Shown here piece by piece: positions 12,487 to 18,186 of a stretch of DNA of 64,000 nt. Made by a program: the position numbers and the translations under genes. Position 1 is the first letter of the stretch; every line of letters begins with the position of its first letter. This stretch comes from Aromatoleum toluclasticum ATCC 700605. GTDB lineage: Bacteria > Pseudomonadota > Gammaproteobacteria > Burkholderiales > Rhodocyclaceae. The notes beneath the pieces were generated by a model that did not search any database, was not told the origin of the DNA, and worked only from the letters and a program-made list of their open reading frames with translations. The stretch lies in contig NZ_KB899510.1 in assembly GCF_000378245.1 (NCBI RefSeq), forward strand, positions 1-64,000, in the 5' to 3' direction.

Positions 12487-12628
12487 AAGCTAAAGTCATT
12501 TGGGAAGTGTTTAAATGCAAACCCATGACAATGCGACCAGGTCGTGCTCAATAGCGTCATTTGTGCGATTGGCATGGGCGCGAACCATTGACCGATTGAA
12601 TCCGGCCAGGCGAGAATCCCGTTTCCTT

Positions 12629-12792
12629 TCGGTTCGACGAAACGGAACACGGTGCGAATCCGTGGCGGGCCCGCCGCTGTATCCGGGGACGGCCGCTGCC
12701 AGGTTGAAGAAACCAGCCACTGACGGGGACCACCCCGGCGGGAAGGCGCAGCGATCCGGCTGATCCGGTAGCCAGAAGACGTGTCGAACCGA
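12629..12792 (+). promoter_or_regulatory. Cobalamin riboswitch, rightward
   Basis: The plus strand carries the aptamer hallmarks: ACACGGTGCGAATCCGTGG, CCCGCCGCTGTATC, the GCCACTG core at 12716-12722, GGCGGGAAGGCG and the B12-box variant AGCCAGAAGACGTGTC at about 12769-12784. A closing stem of 10 base pairs joins 12629-12638 to 12783-12792. It is followed at once by an alternative hairpin and a strong intrinsic terminator and then the cbpA-like peptide gene. The output is therefore a peptide-radical SAM pair and not a B12 synthesis gene. It lies head to head with the leftward riboswitch, about 140 bases apart. Confidence 0.92.
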
Positions 12793-12794
12793 TT

Positions 12795-12816
12795 CGGAGC
12801 CAAGGCAAGGGCTCCG
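12795..12816 (+). promoter_or_regulatory. Candidate antiterminator hairpin of the riboswitch
   Basis: Bases 12795-12801 (CGGAGCC) pair perfectly with 12810-12816 (GGCTCCG). The second arm is also part of the left arm of the terminator at 12807-12856, so the two structures exclude each other, as expected for a transcription-attenuating expression platform. The first arm starts just after the aptamer closing stem. The pairing is seen in the sequence; the switching role is inference. Confidence 0.5.
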
Positions 12817-12865
12817 GCTGAACGCATGCTTGCGCGTGCGCTCAGCCGGAGCCCTTTTTGTTTTT
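12807..12865 (+). terminator. Intrinsic terminator between riboswitch and cbpA
   Basis: Arms 12807-12821 and 12842-12856 form a perfect 15-base-pair stem, extended after one mismatch by CGCA/TGCG. The 3' side runs into TTTTTGTTTTT. It ends about 20 bases before the cbpA start codon, so transcription must read through it to express cbpA and cbpB. With the aptamer directly upstream it forms a B12-responsive OFF switch, as usual for this riboswitch class. Confidence 0.9.
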
Positions 12866-12883
12866 CATCTCGAGGAATAGATC

Positions 12884-13042
12884 ATGACCCGGACCGTTCA
12901 AACCCAAACCCAAACCCAAGCGCAAGCCAACATTCAGCAGCCCCAGGCAGCCGCGCCGACCATCGCCGTCCGCAAGAGCTGTAACCCGGACGGCATCGGC
13001 CTTTCGCACTATGTCCTGATGGACAAGAAGGCCGCCAAGTGA
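12884..13042 (+). CDS. cbpA: CbpA-type modified-peptide precursor
   Basis: A 52-residue peptide, short enough to be missed by gene finders. The N-terminal half is low complexity (TQTQTQTQAQANIQQPQ), suited to a leader. The C-terminal half has one cysteine and a distinct segment (RKSCNPDGIGLSHYVL, then MDKKAAK) that would be the core. ATG 12884 follows CGAGGAATAG. The stop overlaps the GTG start of the radical SAM gene (GTGA), so the pair is coupled. From memory, TIGRFAM-type models describe a rare family CbpA/CbpB of peptide plus radical SAM enzyme under cobalamin riboswitches, which matches exactly. The modification and its purpose are unknown to me. Confidence 0.82.
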   Translation: MTRTVQTQTQTQAQANIQQPQAAAPTIAVRKSCNPDGIGLSHYVLMDKKAAK

Positions 13043-14418
13043 CGGCGGCCCTGCCGAGCCGGGCCTTGGCGGGCCCGGCCCTCATTCCGGTGGACATCGG
13101 CCACCCCGTGTATGCGGCCGTGACCGATCCCGATACCGCCTTCTGGGCCCTGGTGGACAAGACCCGCCTGGCCGAAACCGTGGCCGGCGGCCCGCTGCTG
13201 GATGCCTACCGGGAGCAGGCCGGAGCTTTCGGGCAAGAACTGCATGCCCTGCGCTTCGGCTTGAAGCCTTCGGGCGTCTACCTCAACCCGACCGAGCGCT
13301 GCAATCTCGATTGCACCTATTGCTACCTGCCCGGCAAGCAGCGCAGCGGCGGCCAGCACATGCCTGCGGAAACCCTCATCGCCTCGCTCGGCCGGCTGCG
13401 CGACTATTTCCGCTCCGTCATGCCCGAGGGGCGGAAGCCACGTGCCATTTTCCACGGCGCCGAGCCGCTCATGAACCAGGCTGCGGTATTCGCTGCCATC
13501 AACGAATTCGCCGACGATTTCGCTTTCGGAGTACAGACCAACGGCACGCTCCTCAACGACGCTGCCGTCGATTTCCTGACCAGCCGCAATGTCAGCATCG
13601 GCCTTTCCCTCGACGGGCCAGTGGCCGGCATCACCGACGCCACCCGCCGCACCTGGGGCGGCAAGAGCGTGCACGGCAAGGTGTTGGCGGCGATGGACAA
13701 GCTGAAGGGTTACGGCTCGTGGAGCGTCATCACCACCTGCACCACCGAGAACCTGCCCCACCTCACTTCCATGGTCGAGCTGTTCCATGCCCATGAGGTG
13801 CCGACCTGCATGCTCAACACCCTGCGCTGCACGCTGCCGGGCGCGCGCGGGGTGAAGCCGGCGGACGGAGAGATGGCCAAGGCTTTCTTTGCCGCCCTCG
13901 ATCGCAGCCATGCCTTGTACCGGGAGTCCGGGCGGAAGCTGGTGGTGGCGAATTTTGCCAACATCCTGATCGGCATCCTGGCGCCGACGGCGCGGCGGTT
14001 GATGTGCGACATTTCGCCCTGCGGCGGCGGTCGCGCCTTCTTCGCCCTGGCGGCGGACGGCAGCCTTTATCCGTGCAGCGAATTCATCGGCCTGCCGCGC
14101 TTCAACGGTGGCTCGCTCCTCTCCGAGGGGGGTGTCGAGGCGGCACTGGCATCCGAAGCCTTCAAGACGGTGATCGGGCGCGACGTGGATAAATTCAGTC
14201 CCTGTGGCGACTGTGCCATCCGGCATTTCTGCGGTTCGCCGTGTCCGGCCGAAGCCCACGAAATGAATGGCGGCATGGAGAAAATCGGTGCCTTCTGCGA
14301 CTTCTACAAGGAGCAGGTCAATTACGCCCTGCGCCTGATCGCCGATGGCAAGGCTGACGACTATCTGTGGGACGGCTGGGACGAGGGCACCGAGACGCTG
14401 TTCGATCTCTCCCTCTGA
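13039..14418 (+). CDS. cbpB: Radical SAM/SPASM-type peptide maturase (CbpB-like)
   Basis: 459 residues. The radical SAM [4Fe-4S] motif is C88-x3-C92-x2-C95 (ERCNLDCTYCYLPG), placed after an 80-residue N-terminal region that could bind the peptide leader. The C-terminal third is cysteine-rich in the SPASM manner: MCDISPCGGGRAF, LYPCSEF, FSPCGDCAIRHFCGSPCP and AFCDFY. This implies auxiliary clusters, as in enzymes that crosslink or epimerise ribosomal peptides. The GTG start overlaps the stop of the 52-residue peptide, the presumed substrate. Expression is under the cobalamin riboswitch at 12629. No B12-binding domain is visible. No exporter or protease gene follows; a bidirectional terminator closes the unit. 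Confidence 0.87.
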   Translation: MTAALPSRALAGPALIPVDIGHPVYAAVTDPDTAFWALVDKTRLAETVAGGPLLDAYREQAGAFGQELHALRFGLKPSGVYLNPTERCNLDCTYCYLPGKQRSGGQHMPAETLIASLGRLRDYFRSVMPEGRKPRAIFHGAEPLMNQAAVFAAINEFADDFAFGVQTNGTLLNDAAVDFLTSRNVSIGLSLDGPVAGITDATRRTWGGKSVHGKVLAAMDKLKGYGSWSVITTCTTENLPHLTSMVELFHAHEVPTCMLNTLRCTLPGARGVKPADGEMAKAFFAALDRSHALYRESGRKLVVANFANILIGILAPTARRLMCDISPCGGGRAFFALAADGSLYPCSEFIGLPRFNGGSLLSEGGVEAALASEAFKTVIGRDVDKFSPCGDCAIRHFCGSPCPAEAHEMNGGMEKIGAFCDFYKEQVNYALRLIADGKADDYLWDGWDEGTETLFDLSL

Positions 14419-14492: not shown

Positions 14493-16055
14493 TCAGGTGT
14501 TCGAGTCGGGGAAGGACTCCTTGCGCTGGCGCATATAGTCCTGGAGCGCCTCGTCGATGGCGGGGTCGAGCTCGGGCGCCTCGTACTCGCCGAGCATCTT
14601 CTTCCAGCGTGCGTTGGCGCGCTGGGCCATGTCGAGGCGGCCCTCGGCGTCCCATTGCTCGAAGCTGTTGTTGTCGGCGATGGGCGAGCGGTAGAAGGCG
14701 TTCTCGAAGTTCGCCTGGGTGTGGGCGCAGCCGAGGAAGTGCTTGCCGGGACCGACTTCGCGGATCGCGTCCATCGCCTGGCCGTTTTCGGACAGGTCGA
14801 CGCCGCCCATCAGGACCTGCATCATGCCGGCCTGGTCGGCGTCCATGATGAACTTCTCGTAGCCCATCGCCAGACCGCCTTCGAGCCAGCCCGCGGTGTG
14901 CAGCGCGAAGTTCACCCCGGCGAGCGCGGTGGGCAGCAGGGTGTTGGCGCTTTCGCTCGCGGCCTGTGCGTCGGGGACCTTCGAGGCCGTCAGCGATCCG
15001 CCGGAACGGAAGGGCACGCCGAGGCGGCGCGCGAGGTTTGCCATCACGTACAGCACCAGCGCGGGCTCGGGCGTACCGAAGGTGGGGGCGCCGGACTGCA
15101 TCGACATGGAGCTCGCGAAGCTGCCGAACACCACCGGGGCGCCCGGATTGACCAGCTGGACGAAGGCCATGCCGGCCATCGCCTCGGCGAGCGTCTGCGC
15201 GGCAGTGCCGGCGACGGTTACCGGCGACATCGCGCCGGCGAGGATGAACGGGGTGACGATGCAGGCCTGGTTGGCGCGCGCATAGACCTTGGCGGCGCCG
15301 AGCATCGTGTCGTCGAAGGTCATCGGCGAGTTGGCGTTGATCAGGTTGATCACGGCGGTGCGCGGCTTGCCCGTTTCGGGGTCGATCCACTGGTCGCCGA
15401 ACAGGATCCTGGCCATTTCGACCGTGTCCTGCGCGCGCTCGGGATGGGTGACCGAGCCCATGAAGCACTTGTCGGAGTACTTCATGTGGCTGTAGACCAT
15501 GTCGAAGTGGCGCTTGTTGACCGGTAGGTCGACCGGCTCGCAGATCGTGCCGCCGGAGTGGTGGAGGCCGGGCGACATGTAGGCGAGCTTGACGAAGTTG
15601 CGGAAGTCTTCGATGGTGCCGTAGCGGCGGCCGTCGTCGAGGTTGTGGATGAACGGGCAGCCATAGGCGGGCACGAAGACCGTGTTGGCTCCGCCGATGC
15701 GTACGCTGCGTTCGGGATTGCGCGCGATCTGCGTGAATTCGCGCGGTGCGTTCTCCTGGATCAGCTTGCGGCACATCCCGCGGGGCATCCGCACCCGCTC
15801 GCCCTGCACGTCGGCCCCGGCATCGCGCCAGATCTGCAGCGCCTCGGGGTCATCGCGGAAGTCGATGCCGATTTCCTCGAGGATCGTGTCGGCGTTGTGC
15901 TCGATGATCGAGAGCCCTTCTTCGTTGAGCACTTCGTAGAAGGGAACCTTGCGGGTGACGTACGGGATGCTCATGCCCTGCCCGCGCGACCGCGCCGCAC
16001 GGCGTGCCTCGCTTCCGCTGCGACCGCCGCGCCGGCGGGTTTCGGTGGTGCTCAT
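14493..16055 (-). CDS. MttB-family (non-pyrrolysine) corrinoid methyltransferase
   Basis: 520 residues of the trimethylamine methyltransferase MttB superfamily: SIIEHNADTILEEIGIDFRD, AYGCPFIHNLDDGRRYGT, GTICEPVDLPVNKRHFDMVY, INLINANSPMTFDDTML and FLGCAHTQANFENAFYRS. The frame has no amber codon, so it is the pyrrolysine-lacking branch. Known members of that branch demethylate quaternary amines such as glycine betaine by passing a methyl group to a corrinoid protein. ATG 16055 is chosen because GGAGAG lies 9 bases upstream; an in-frame ATG at 16070 is possible. The first about 25 residues are Arg-rich. No corrinoid protein or reactivase is in view. The B12 locus and BCCT transporter next door support a role on a quaternary amine; the actual substrate is unproven. 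Confidence 0.85.
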   Translation of the reverse strand: MSTTETRRRGGRSGSEARRAARSRGQGMSIPYVTRKVPFYEVLNEEGLSIIEHNADTILEEIGIDFRDDPEALQIWRDAGADVQGERVRMPRGMCRKLIQENAPREFTQIARNPERSVRIGGANTVFVPAYGCPFIHNLDDGRRYGTIEDFRNFVKLAYMSPGLHHSGGTICEPVDLPVNKRHFDMVYSHMKYSDKCFMGSVTHPERAQDTVEMARILFGDQWIDPETGKPRTAVINLINANSPMTFDDTMLGAAKVYARANQACIVTPFILAGAMSPVTVAGTAAQTLAEAMAGMAFVQLVNPGAPVVFGSFASSMSMQSGAPTFGTPEPALVLYVMANLARRLGVPFRSGGSLTASKVPDAQAASESANTLLPTALAGVNFALHTAGWLEGGLAMGYEKFIMDADQAGMMQVLMGGVDLSENGQAMDAIREVGPGKHFLGCAHTQANFENAFYRSPIADNNSFEQWDAEGRLDMAQRANARWKKMLGEYEAPELDPAIDEALQDYMRQRKESFPDSNT

Positions 16056-16179
16056 TGTCTCGCTCTCCATCGTGTTGTTCGGGACACATCTCGCTGTCAG
16101 TATGCGGAGGGAAGGGGGAGGCAGACATGGCAGGGAGCGACCCGCGAATAGCGAATTGCGCCATGCCCGGGTCGGGCGG

Positions 16180-16494
16180 TCAGGGGATGAGGGCGCCGGC
16201 CTGCCGCGACAGCCCTTCCTGCCACAAGCACAGGAGCCCGCGAAGCGAGAGCGGGTCGACGGAGGCCGGCTTGCCGTTTCCGCTTGCGACGTAAGGCGTG
16301 GGCGCGGTGGGCGGCCTACCCCGTGGGGTCTGCTCGCCCGCGGGCGGCCGCTTCGTCTCGGGGGCGCCACAGTGGATCGTCCGGCTTGCCGTCGGTTCGG
16401 GCGGATAACCGGTGGCAGGTGAAGGCATCACCAGTGCGGCTGCGAGGGCTGAGAAAAGCATCGTGAGGCGGGGCCTGGAGGCAAAGACTCTCAC
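16180..16494 (-). CDS. Possible small exported protein
   Basis: About 104 residues from GTG 16494, with GAGGGAG seven bases upstream; an ATG at 16518 is an alternative. The N-terminus looks like a signal peptide: basic start, hydrophobic TMLFSALAAALVM, and a likely cleavage near SPATG. The rest is proline-rich with two cysteines and no recognised domain. It lies between the MttB-like gene and the BCCT gene, all leftward. The evidence is only the signal-like start and ribosome site, so it may be chance in GC-rich DNA. Apart from this frame, the 16056-16632 stretch holds nothing I can identify. Confidence 0.35.
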   Translation of the reverse strand: MRVFASRPRLTMLFSALAAALVMPSPATGYPPEPTASRTIHCGAPETKRPPAGEQTPRGRPPTAPTPYVASGNGKPASVDPLSLRGLLCLWQEGLSRQAGALIP

Positions 16495-16632
16495 TGGAAA
16501 CTCCCTCGGTGTCTTCAATGCGACAGGCTTCGCACTGCACGAGTGTGACGTGCGAAGCGGGCGCGACTGCCTGTCGTGCCCGCCACGTGGTCTAAGCCAG
16601 CGCGAAGCCGTCCGTGGAACGGCCGCGTGTGT

Positions 16633-18186
16633 TCAGGCGTAGTGGCACTCGTGCAGTGCCTTGTAGAGGCCGATCATCATCACCAGCAATACGACGGTGA
16701 AGGGCAGGCCCGCGGTGACTGCGCCTGCCTGCAAGGCGTTGAGCGCATCCGTACCGCCAGCCGACAGGAGGATTGCGGCGATGATGCCTACCAGGCAGGC
16801 CCACAGCACCTTCTGCCGCCGTGGAGCGTCGACCTTTCCGCCGGCCGTGATGCAGTCGATCACCAGCGCGCCGGAATCCGCCGACGTCACGAAGAAGACC
16901 AGAATCAGCATGACCGCCAACGCGGACGTGACCGAGCTCATGGGCATGTTCGCGAGCATCTGGAAAAGGGGCAGCGACACATCGCTGATTCCCTTGGCCA
17001 GTTCCCCGATTCCCCCCGTGGCCTGCGCCAGCGCGTTACCACCGAAAGCGGTCATCCAGAGCAATGTGACCACGGTCGGGACGATGAGGACCGCGGTCAC
17101 CATTGCGCGTACCGTGCGGCCACGGGAGATGCGTGCGATGAAGATGCCGACGAAGGGCGACCAGGAGATCCACCATGCCCAGTAGAAGACCGTCCAGCCG
17201 TGGAGCCATTTGTCATCCTCGCGACCGATCCAGTTCGACAACTGGAACAGATGTGAGGCGTAGTCGGCGGCTGTAGTGCCGATCCAGCTGAAATACGCAA
17301 CGATGCCGCCCGCGAATGCGACGAACACCATCAATGTGGTCGCCAAAGCCATATTGATGTTGCTGAGGAGCTTGACGCCTCCGTCGATGCCGCGCCAGAC
17401 GGACAACACGGTGATGGCGCTCACCACGACGATGATCCAGATCTGCAGATCGAGGGAATTATCGGCCCCGGTCAGGAAATGAAGGCCGCTGGCTGCCTGG
17501 GTTGCGCCGAGCCCCAGCGAGGTGGCGAGACCGAAGATCGTCGCCAGTACTGCGACGATGTCAATGATGTGGCCCGCCCAACCACGCACTTTGTTGCCGA
17601 GCAGCGGAAAGAATGCTGCACGCAGCGACAGCGGTAACCCCATGTTGAAGGTGAAGAAGCCGATCGCGACCGCAACGACGGCGTAGATTGCCCACGGGTG
17701 AAGGCCCCAGTGGAACATCGTGGCGCCCATCGCCGCGCTGGCCGCCTCCGGCGTTCTCGCCTGCGCATTGAGCGGAGTGCCATACCAGTCGGTGTAATAG
17801 GCGACGGGCTCGGCGACGCTCCAGAACATCAATCCGATCCCCATGCCCGCAGCGAAAAGCATCGCGAACCAGGACGTTGTCGAGTATTCGGGCCGCGCCT
17901 TTGCGCCTCCGAGCCTTACCTTGCCGATCGGGAGTAGAACCAACGCAAAGCAGAACAGCACGAATGCGTTGCCCGCAAACATGAACAGCCAGTCGAAATG
18001 CTCGATTGTCCACGTCCGCGCGGCCACCATTTGCGCGCTGGCCGTGGCCGGGTCGAAGAGTGCGTAAAAAATGAAAAGGAGGGTAAAGCCGGCCGAAATC
18101 GGGAACACGGGATTATGAAAATCCATGCCCCAAAACTGCTTGTTGTCGATACCTGGCTCCAGAACCAGGGTTTGACTAACGCTCAT
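16633..18186 (-). CDS. BCCT-family transporter (betaine/carnitine/choline type)
   Basis: 517 residues with about 12 hydrophobic segments. The family hallmarks are AMLFAAGMGIGLMFWSVAEP and the tryptophan-rich segment GWTVFYWAWWISWSPFVGIF followed by ARISRGRT. These residues form the substrate cage for trimethylammonium compounds in structurally known members. It is an inner-membrane secondary transporter, likely for glycine betaine or a relative. The start at 18186 has AGGAGA upstream. It lies between a porin gene and the MttB-like gene, suggesting an uptake-and-demethylation set. The long cytoplasmic C-terminal tail seen in osmosensing BetP-like members is absent, so it may serve nutrition more than osmoregulation. 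Confidence 0.92.
   Translation of the reverse strand: MSVSQTLVLEPGIDNKQFWGMDFHNPVFPISAGFTLLFIFYALFDPATASAQMVAARTWTIEHFDWLFMFAGNAFVLFCFALVLLPIGKVRLGGAKARPEYSTTSWFAMLFAAGMGIGLMFWSVAEPVAYYTDWYGTPLNAQARTPEAASAAMGATMFHWGLHPWAIYAVVAVAIGFFTFNMGLPLSLRAAFFPLLGNKVRGWAGHIIDIVAVLATIFGLATSLGLGATQAASGLHFLTGADNSLDLQIWIIVVVSAITVLSVWRGIDGGVKLLSNINMALATTLMVFVAFAGGIVAYFSWIGTTAADYASHLFQLSNWIGREDDKWLHGWTVFYWAWWISWSPFVGIFIARISRGRTVRAMVTAVLIVPTVVTLLWMTAFGGNALAQATGGIGELAKGISDVSLPLFQMLANMPMSSVTSALAVMLILVFFVTSADSGALVIDCITAGGKVDAPRRQKVLWACLVGIIAAILLSAGGTDALNALQAGAVTAGLPFTVVLLVMMIGLYKALHECHYA

Follow-up and report, generated by a model that had tools for sequence, protein, structure and literature searches.

The 64,000-nucleotide stretch of Aromatoleum toluclasticum ATCC 700605 analysed here (contig NZ_KB899510.1, positions 1 to 64,000; hereafter the window) carries a cobalamin riboswitch followed by cbpA and cbpB, which encode a small precursor peptide and a radical S-adenosylmethionine (SAM) enzyme. 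Judged by its profile scores, the locus is a member of the CbpA/CbpB family, which is already named in NCBIfam and is uncharacterised, and both the identity of the cassette and the architecture of its switch are well supported by sequence comparison. We propose, with a probability of about 0.5, that this is a vitamin B12-repressed cassette of the type that makes ribosomally synthesized and post-translationally modified peptides (RiPPs), and that its product would be a fixed, intracellular, cofactor-like peptide used in cobamide synthesis or cobalt handling and made when cobamide is low. The parts of the cassette are as follows.

12613-12802 (+): cobalamin riboswitch aptamer, RF00174 (cmscan 77.5 bits against a gathering score of 31.5, E 2.3e-17)
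12794-12817 (+): antiterminator helix, in which 12794-12801 pairs with 12810-12817
12807-12866 (+): intrinsic terminator, a 50-nt hairpin (12807-12856) followed by a U-rich tail
12884-13042 (+): cbpA, 52-residue precursor peptide (TIGR04164, 56.9 bits against a cut-off of 35)
12962-13030 (+): CbpA core, residues 27-49 (IAVRKSCNPDGIGLSHYVLMDKK), with eight residues identical in 82 of 82 peptides
13039-14418 (+): cbpB, radical SAM/SPASM peptide maturase of 459 aa with a GTG start (TIGR04163, 721.5 bits against a cut-off of 375)
13300-13323 (+): radical SAM CxxxCxxC motif of CbpB (C88, C92, C95), invariant in 49 CbpB sequences
14005-14298 (+): SPASM region of CbpB, with C323, C328, C346, C389, C392, C398, C402 and C420, all invariant in the 49 sequences

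The order on the forward strand is thus aptamer, antiterminator/terminator, cbpA and cbpB, and the cbpA stop overlaps the GTG start of cbpB by four bases. A first-pass annotation of this DNA had proposed a cobalamin aptamer and a 52-residue precursor-like peptide and had suggested the CbpA/CbpB name. The aptamer does match RF00174 well above the gathering score, beginning 16 bases earlier than had been thought, and it is accompanied by an expression platform with both terminator and antiterminator; the peptide and the suggested name were borne out by profile searches that placed both genes above their NCBIfam cut-offs. The extra C-terminal cysteines remarked on in the enzyme proved to be the eight-cysteine SPASM pattern. 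No paper on the CbpA/CbpB family was found in the open-access literature, either under the family names (most subscription papers lie outside that search) or by wider open-access searches.

The peptide itself was compared across relatives. A scan of named genomes returned 249 candidate relatives, the best 80 of which were used; they represent 77 genomes or bins, with two entries for three of these. All 80 carry a CbpA frame ahead of cbpB, the conservation beside homologous enzymes that a genuine precursor implies. Aligned with the peptides of the window and of the Methylovirgula plasmid pHY1 (82 in all, none dropped), these frames share the pattern I-A-x-R-K-x-C-x-x-x-G-x-G-L-S-H-Y-[VI]-L-M-D. 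R30, C33, G37, G39, L40, S41, H42 and L45 are identical in every peptide, and Y43 is replaced once, by phenylalanine, which suggests that the phenol oxygen may not be essential. The core has one invariant cysteine, and its Cys, His, Tyr and mostly its Asp are kept. The leader is not conserved, with 0.5-1.4 bits at positions 30 to 10 before the cysteine compared to 3.4-4.3 bits for the well-kept core. Precursor length ranges from 32 to 80 residues when counted from the nearest plausible start (which 79 of the 82 possess), and the C-terminus falls 18-19 residues past the cysteine in 78 of the 82. Third codon positions vary at the fixed residues, and therefore selection acts on the CbpA peptide; together with the 80/80 conservation of the frame, this variation rules out that cbpA is a chance frame or an artefact. 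In Sedimenticola, two precursors (L079 and L080) each hold two complete cores, so a unit of about 21 residues appears to be the functional element. Pfam has no match in CbpA, and a comparison with solved structures returned nothing up to E 10. The resemblance of GVGFSH (CbtB) to GVGLSH (CbpA) was set aside as too short.

Control by cobalamin is indicated both by the predicted fold of the RNA ahead of cbpA and by the relatives. Judged against 200 shuffles each, the terminator hairpin (12807-12856) with its U-rich tail is predicted to be very stable (-44.8 kcal/mol, z -9.3, equalled by 0/200 shuffles), and the antiterminator folded alone (12783-12819) is modestly so (-14.9 kcal/mol, z -1.85, equalled by 12/200). 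Since one strand of the antiterminator (12810-12817) doubles as 5' arm of the terminator, the two are mutually exclusive, as the first-pass annotation had held. The minimum-energy fold of 12613-12870 contains the terminator and has the antiterminator strand paired to the 5' side of the aptamer, a predicted arrangement that is compatible with an OFF switch. An aptamer lies upstream of cbpA in all 17 whole-genome relatives scanned (the eighteenth, L027, was left out because its sequence starts inside cbpB) and in 72 of the 80 named relatives: 65 by motif, six by Rfam (the match at L084 being near threshold) and one at a contig edge. Four of the motif-positive loci were also run through Rfam and all four were confirmed, the other 61 being motif assignments. 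The remaining eight loci comprise three in cobamide gene runs, one that is cut off (L058) and four without a riboswitch. Terminator-like hairpins occur in 57 of the 66 motif-positive loci (65 relatives and the window; 56 by a second method) and are missing at L043, L053, L064, L081, L095, L096, L100, L101 and L105; at L053, masked letters lie inside the hairpin region. An antiterminator duplex of at least six Watson-Crick pairs is found in 47 of the 56 terminator-bearing loci, window included, vs. 18% of shuffles, and its two strands change in a compensatory manner across lineages (GGAGCC/GGCTCC, GAAACC/GGTTTC and GGGACC/GGTCCC). This architecture and covariation argue for the B12-off transcription switch that had been suggested for the locus.

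We also examined the probable chemistry of CbpB. The AlphaFold2 model of the enzyme (mean pLDDT, a predicted local distance difference test score, of 86.7) has CteB as its first Foldseek match and anSMEcpe, ChlB, TigE and SuiB among its other best matches, and at the sequence level the PDB entries that match best are CteB and anSME. Membership of the SPASM radical SAM enzymes is indicated by the three motif cysteines and eight SPASM cysteines invariant in the 49 sequences, and by a match of TIGR04085 in the SPASM region (46.9 bits, cut-off 27); Pfam recognizes Radical_SAM, with SPASM under gathering (17.5 vs. 21.5). Profiles for the PapB, dynobactin, QHNDH and SCIFF maturases match CbpB well under their cut-offs, the next-best profile being that of the ranthipeptide maturase PapB (NF047865, 107.5 bits against 340), and the SCIFF maturase profile TIGR03974 giving 83.9 bits against 425. 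These sub-threshold matches make a thioether or cyclophane crosslink plausible in the CbpB product. The N-terminal part is modelled as three strands and two helices, the best match of which in isolation is a RiPP recognition element protein, at a non-significant E of 0.95. Besides the motif and SPASM cysteines, C257 and C264 are also invariant in the 49 sequences; both lie in or close to the strand 256-261.

Taken as a mechanism, bound cobamide would let the extended P1 helix of the aptamer hold the antiterminator strand, leaving the terminator free to form and cbpAB silent. Under cobamide shortage the two proteins would be made together, and CbpB would then introduce at least one crosslink by radical chemistry into the C-terminal core of CbpA, around Cys33 and the Gly-x-Gly-Leu-Ser-His-Tyr-x-Leu segment.

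The surroundings of the cassette in relatives bear on where its product acts. Neighbour families were derived for 81 loci from codon-trained gene calls by connected-component clustering. Other than cbpB itself (81/81) and cbpA, no family exceeds 17 loci, the largest being cobamide amidation enzymes (17/81), a mixed group of ABC ATPases (14/81) and CobO (13/81); looser coverage yields one mixed group that reaches 30 of the 81 loci, with a best-connected member of 1086 residues. No gene for an exporter, receptor, immunity protein or protease accompanies cbpAB consistently in these loci, in keeping with the first-pass remark that no exporter is encoded nearby, and export or uptake genes kept with the biosynthetic genes, as expected for a metallophore, are not seen in them either. 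Because the core is nearly fixed, the leader is not, and none of these genes is a constant neighbour, the most likely product of CbpA is a single defined molecule that stays inside the cell and serves in the manner of a cofactor.

Cobamide synthesis, or the handling of cobalt for it, is the most likely job of this molecule, since the cassette nearly always occurs with cobQ, a gene of the late cobamide pathway, and sometimes lies among cobamide genes. The latter were found in 22 of 80 loci within the stretches covered, and in three loci of one CbpB clade (L059, L062 and L063) cbpAB sits on the same strand between cbiF and cbiX, with a riboswitch 3-6 kb upstream. For gene content, all 19 cbpB-positive genomes of the window's family and 55 of its 180 negatives were compared (74 genomes), by Fisher tests that ignore the relatedness of genomes, and 33 of the 77 named genomes were added as a further sample, picked for more distant lineages. 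cobQ is present in 19/19 cbpB-positive vs. 31/55 cbpB-negative family genomes (p 1.6e-4) and in 28 of the 33 further genomes (27 above cut-off). For cbiD the family counts are 14/19 and 12/55 (p 1.4e-4), or 14/19 and 12/31 (p 0.02) when restricted to cobQ-positive genomes. A link to the anaerobic pathway only was ruled out, as some hosts have cobN and not cbiD. Among the functions first proposed for the peptide, cobalt or cobamide economy fits best, and no specific support was found for a lower-ligand or a signalling role.

Several observations weigh against this interpretation. In 58 of the 80 loci the stretch covered holds none of the cobamide genes queried, and the ABC-ATPase group of 14 loci includes exporter-like types, at a median of 3.3 kb and varying distance from the cassette. 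The five further genomes in which cobQ was not matched are all metagenome bins. The cassette is not bound to one pathway, with cbiD in 14/19 and 24/33 genomes and cobN above cut-off in 5/52, and two near-complete genomes (G542 and G642) gave neither gene. Nor does the CbtA cobalt transporter clearly track cbpB (4/19 vs. 1/31 cobQ-positive genomes, p 0.06). On the regulatory side, no riboswitch was detected at L033, L087, L094 and L104, nor on the Methylovirgula plasmid, and a generic consensus scan, which listed two terminator-like sites against a shuffle mean of 2.2, did not list the window's terminator, probably on account of an internal mismatch in the hairpin.

The fixed core and the lack of a fixed exporter neighbour would also suit a backup cofactor, that is, a modified peptide for a B12-independent enzyme that takes over from a B12-dependent one at cobamide shortage. 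Such a peptide would be the analogue of the isozymes of B12-dependent enzymes, which PMC3766115 gives as an established class of cobalamin-riboswitch targets, and on the Methylovirgula plasmid (L011 19804-24753) cbpAB does lie about 2 kb from pqqA, pqqD and pqqE. However, no partner enzyme is fixed beside cbpAB, and cbpB is absent from all 24 cobQ-negative genomes in the set of 74, although a substitute for B12 should help them too. Likewise metE, the one isozyme tested, does not track cbpB (0/19 vs. 1/31 cobQ-positive genomes). We therefore consider a backup cofactor unlikely. As clues in general, the co-occurrence of CbtA and of metE was not informative among the 50 cobQ-positive genomes.

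A secreted cobaltophore or cobamide-scavenging peptide, released and re-imported at shortage in the manner of a metallophore, appears quite improbable. In its favour, the core keeps its Cys, His, Tyr and mostly its Asp, the same regulon includes genes for cobalt transport and for a BtuB-like TonB receptor, and in some loci exporter-like ABC ATPases from the group described above lie within 10 kb; yet exporter, receptor and protease genes are not fixed neighbours, and the CbpA core does not vary between taxa, whereas metallophore cores usually do. The near-invariant core, and the fact that neither an immunity nor a receptor gene is a fixed neighbour, speak against a signalling peptide or an antimicrobial aimed at competitors for B12, although radical SAM RiPPs do include such molecules, and we regard this possibility as very slight. 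Finally, cbpA could be a mere leader frame that tunes translation of cbpB, the substrate of which would then be something else. The four-base overlap suggests translational coupling of this kind, but amino acids that stay fixed while third codon positions vary indicate strong selection on the peptide, and two precursors contain two complete cores, so that a leader frame is hardly credible.

The preferred reading, a cofactor-like peptide of cobamide or cobalt metabolism, can be narrowed only tentatively. The leading specific guess, itself doubtful, is a cobalt ligand or chaperone that bears the conserved cysteine and histidine. Somewhat broader, and still short of even odds, is the proposal that CbpA is the source of an undescribed, near-invariant peptide with a part in the cobamide pathway, such as a ligand or chaperone for cobalt in the cytoplasm or a cofactor in assembly. 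If it is true, this factor would open a fifth functional class among the targets of cobalamin riboswitches and represent a new type of metabolic tool derived from RiPPs, common to nine labelled bacterial phyla; should the product serve in cobalt or cobamide assembly, a vitamin pathway that has been studied very thoroughly would gain a new component. The problem is in any case narrowed to one fixed core of about 20 residues with a single invariant cysteine, in cobQ-carrying hosts and under a B12-off switch.

The cassette is rare and appears to have moved little between phyla. CbpB was found in 1 of 274 genomes sampled from the class (the window's own), in 3 of 250 from the order and in 19 of 199 genomes of the window's family, 18 of them above the curated cut-off. 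The 80 relatives fall in nine phyla by the labels of their submitters, three of these phyla being represented by one bin each, and bins can contain foreign contigs. A CbpB tree built by a quick method sorts by phylum, with nine label changes where eight is the minimum possible, and therefore the cassette is old or at least has had little free movement between phyla. Within Aromatoleum there are two CbpB lineages, one that joins the window to A. evansii and a separate one with other Aromatoleum sequences, a split that points to exchange or paralogy. One scan of viral contigs revealed no cassette, and among plasmids one record, Methylovirgula pHY1, carries it.

Some features next to the cassette deserve mention in their own right. 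A second cobalamin riboswitch in the window (12482-12273, -; 110.3 bits) is stronger than the first and divergent from it, facing cbiB and cobD, and the same divergent pair is present in the planctomycete loci L084, L086 and L099. Between this second riboswitch and cbiB are a cbtB remnant (12069-11965, -; 77% identity over 35 residues) and a remnant of the start of bluB (11878-11798, -), longer copies of both genes being present elsewhere in the genome. Following cbpB, on the reverse strand (14493-18186), are genes for an MttB-like methyltransferase (260.8 bits, cut-off 525) and a BCCT transporter, and by eye MttB-like and BCCT genes also follow cbpB in A. evansii (L028). In other relatives, a gene that is BluB-like by eye begins where cbpB ends, on the same strand (L066 and L068), or a small same-strand gene begins 7-72 bases after it (L039, L042, L044, L046 and L065). 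The family of this small gene is found in 7 of the 81 loci, and its L046 copy is GNAT acetyltransferase-like, under all cut-offs. A 189-residue gene among the cobamide genes of L062 (5229-5798) is without an NCBIfam match at E 1e-5; inspected by eye, it looks similar to a gene close to the cobamide genes of L043.

As for known systems, the window's genome has six cobalamin riboswitches, two of them in the window, and the other four precede regions with cobamide-synthesis, BluB, BtuB-like or CbtAB cobalt-transporter genes. The cassette thus shares its aptamer class with the cobalamin-riboswitch regulons described in PMC3766115, where the target classes are synthesis, B12 transport, cobalt transport and isozymes, and the same genome has aptamers before regions with such genes. 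A modified peptide, as predicted for cbpAB, fits none of those four classes outright. The main text of PMC3766115 contains the term "radical SAM" nowhere, and passages of PMC9600662 hold nothing on the CbpA/CbpB cassette. The ranthipeptide and SCIFF maturases PapB and CteB have the SPASM radical SAM fold in common with CbpB, but the CbpA core has one invariant cysteine, whereas their thioether peptides carry several cysteines or a CxxxD array in the core. In PQQ (pyrroloquinoline quinone) and mycofactocin synthesis a small fixed precursor and a SPASM radical SAM enzyme give rise to one conserved redox cofactor. CbpA and CbpB likewise pair a small fixed precursor with a SPASM radical SAM enzyme; in contrast to these systems, cbpAB is without a chaperone, protease or tailoring gene as fixed neighbour and has a B12 riboswitch in front. 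From the CbpA/CbpB family as defined in NCBIfam the window pair differs in nothing essential, having the same gene order as all 80 relatives and a riboswitch as in 72 of them.

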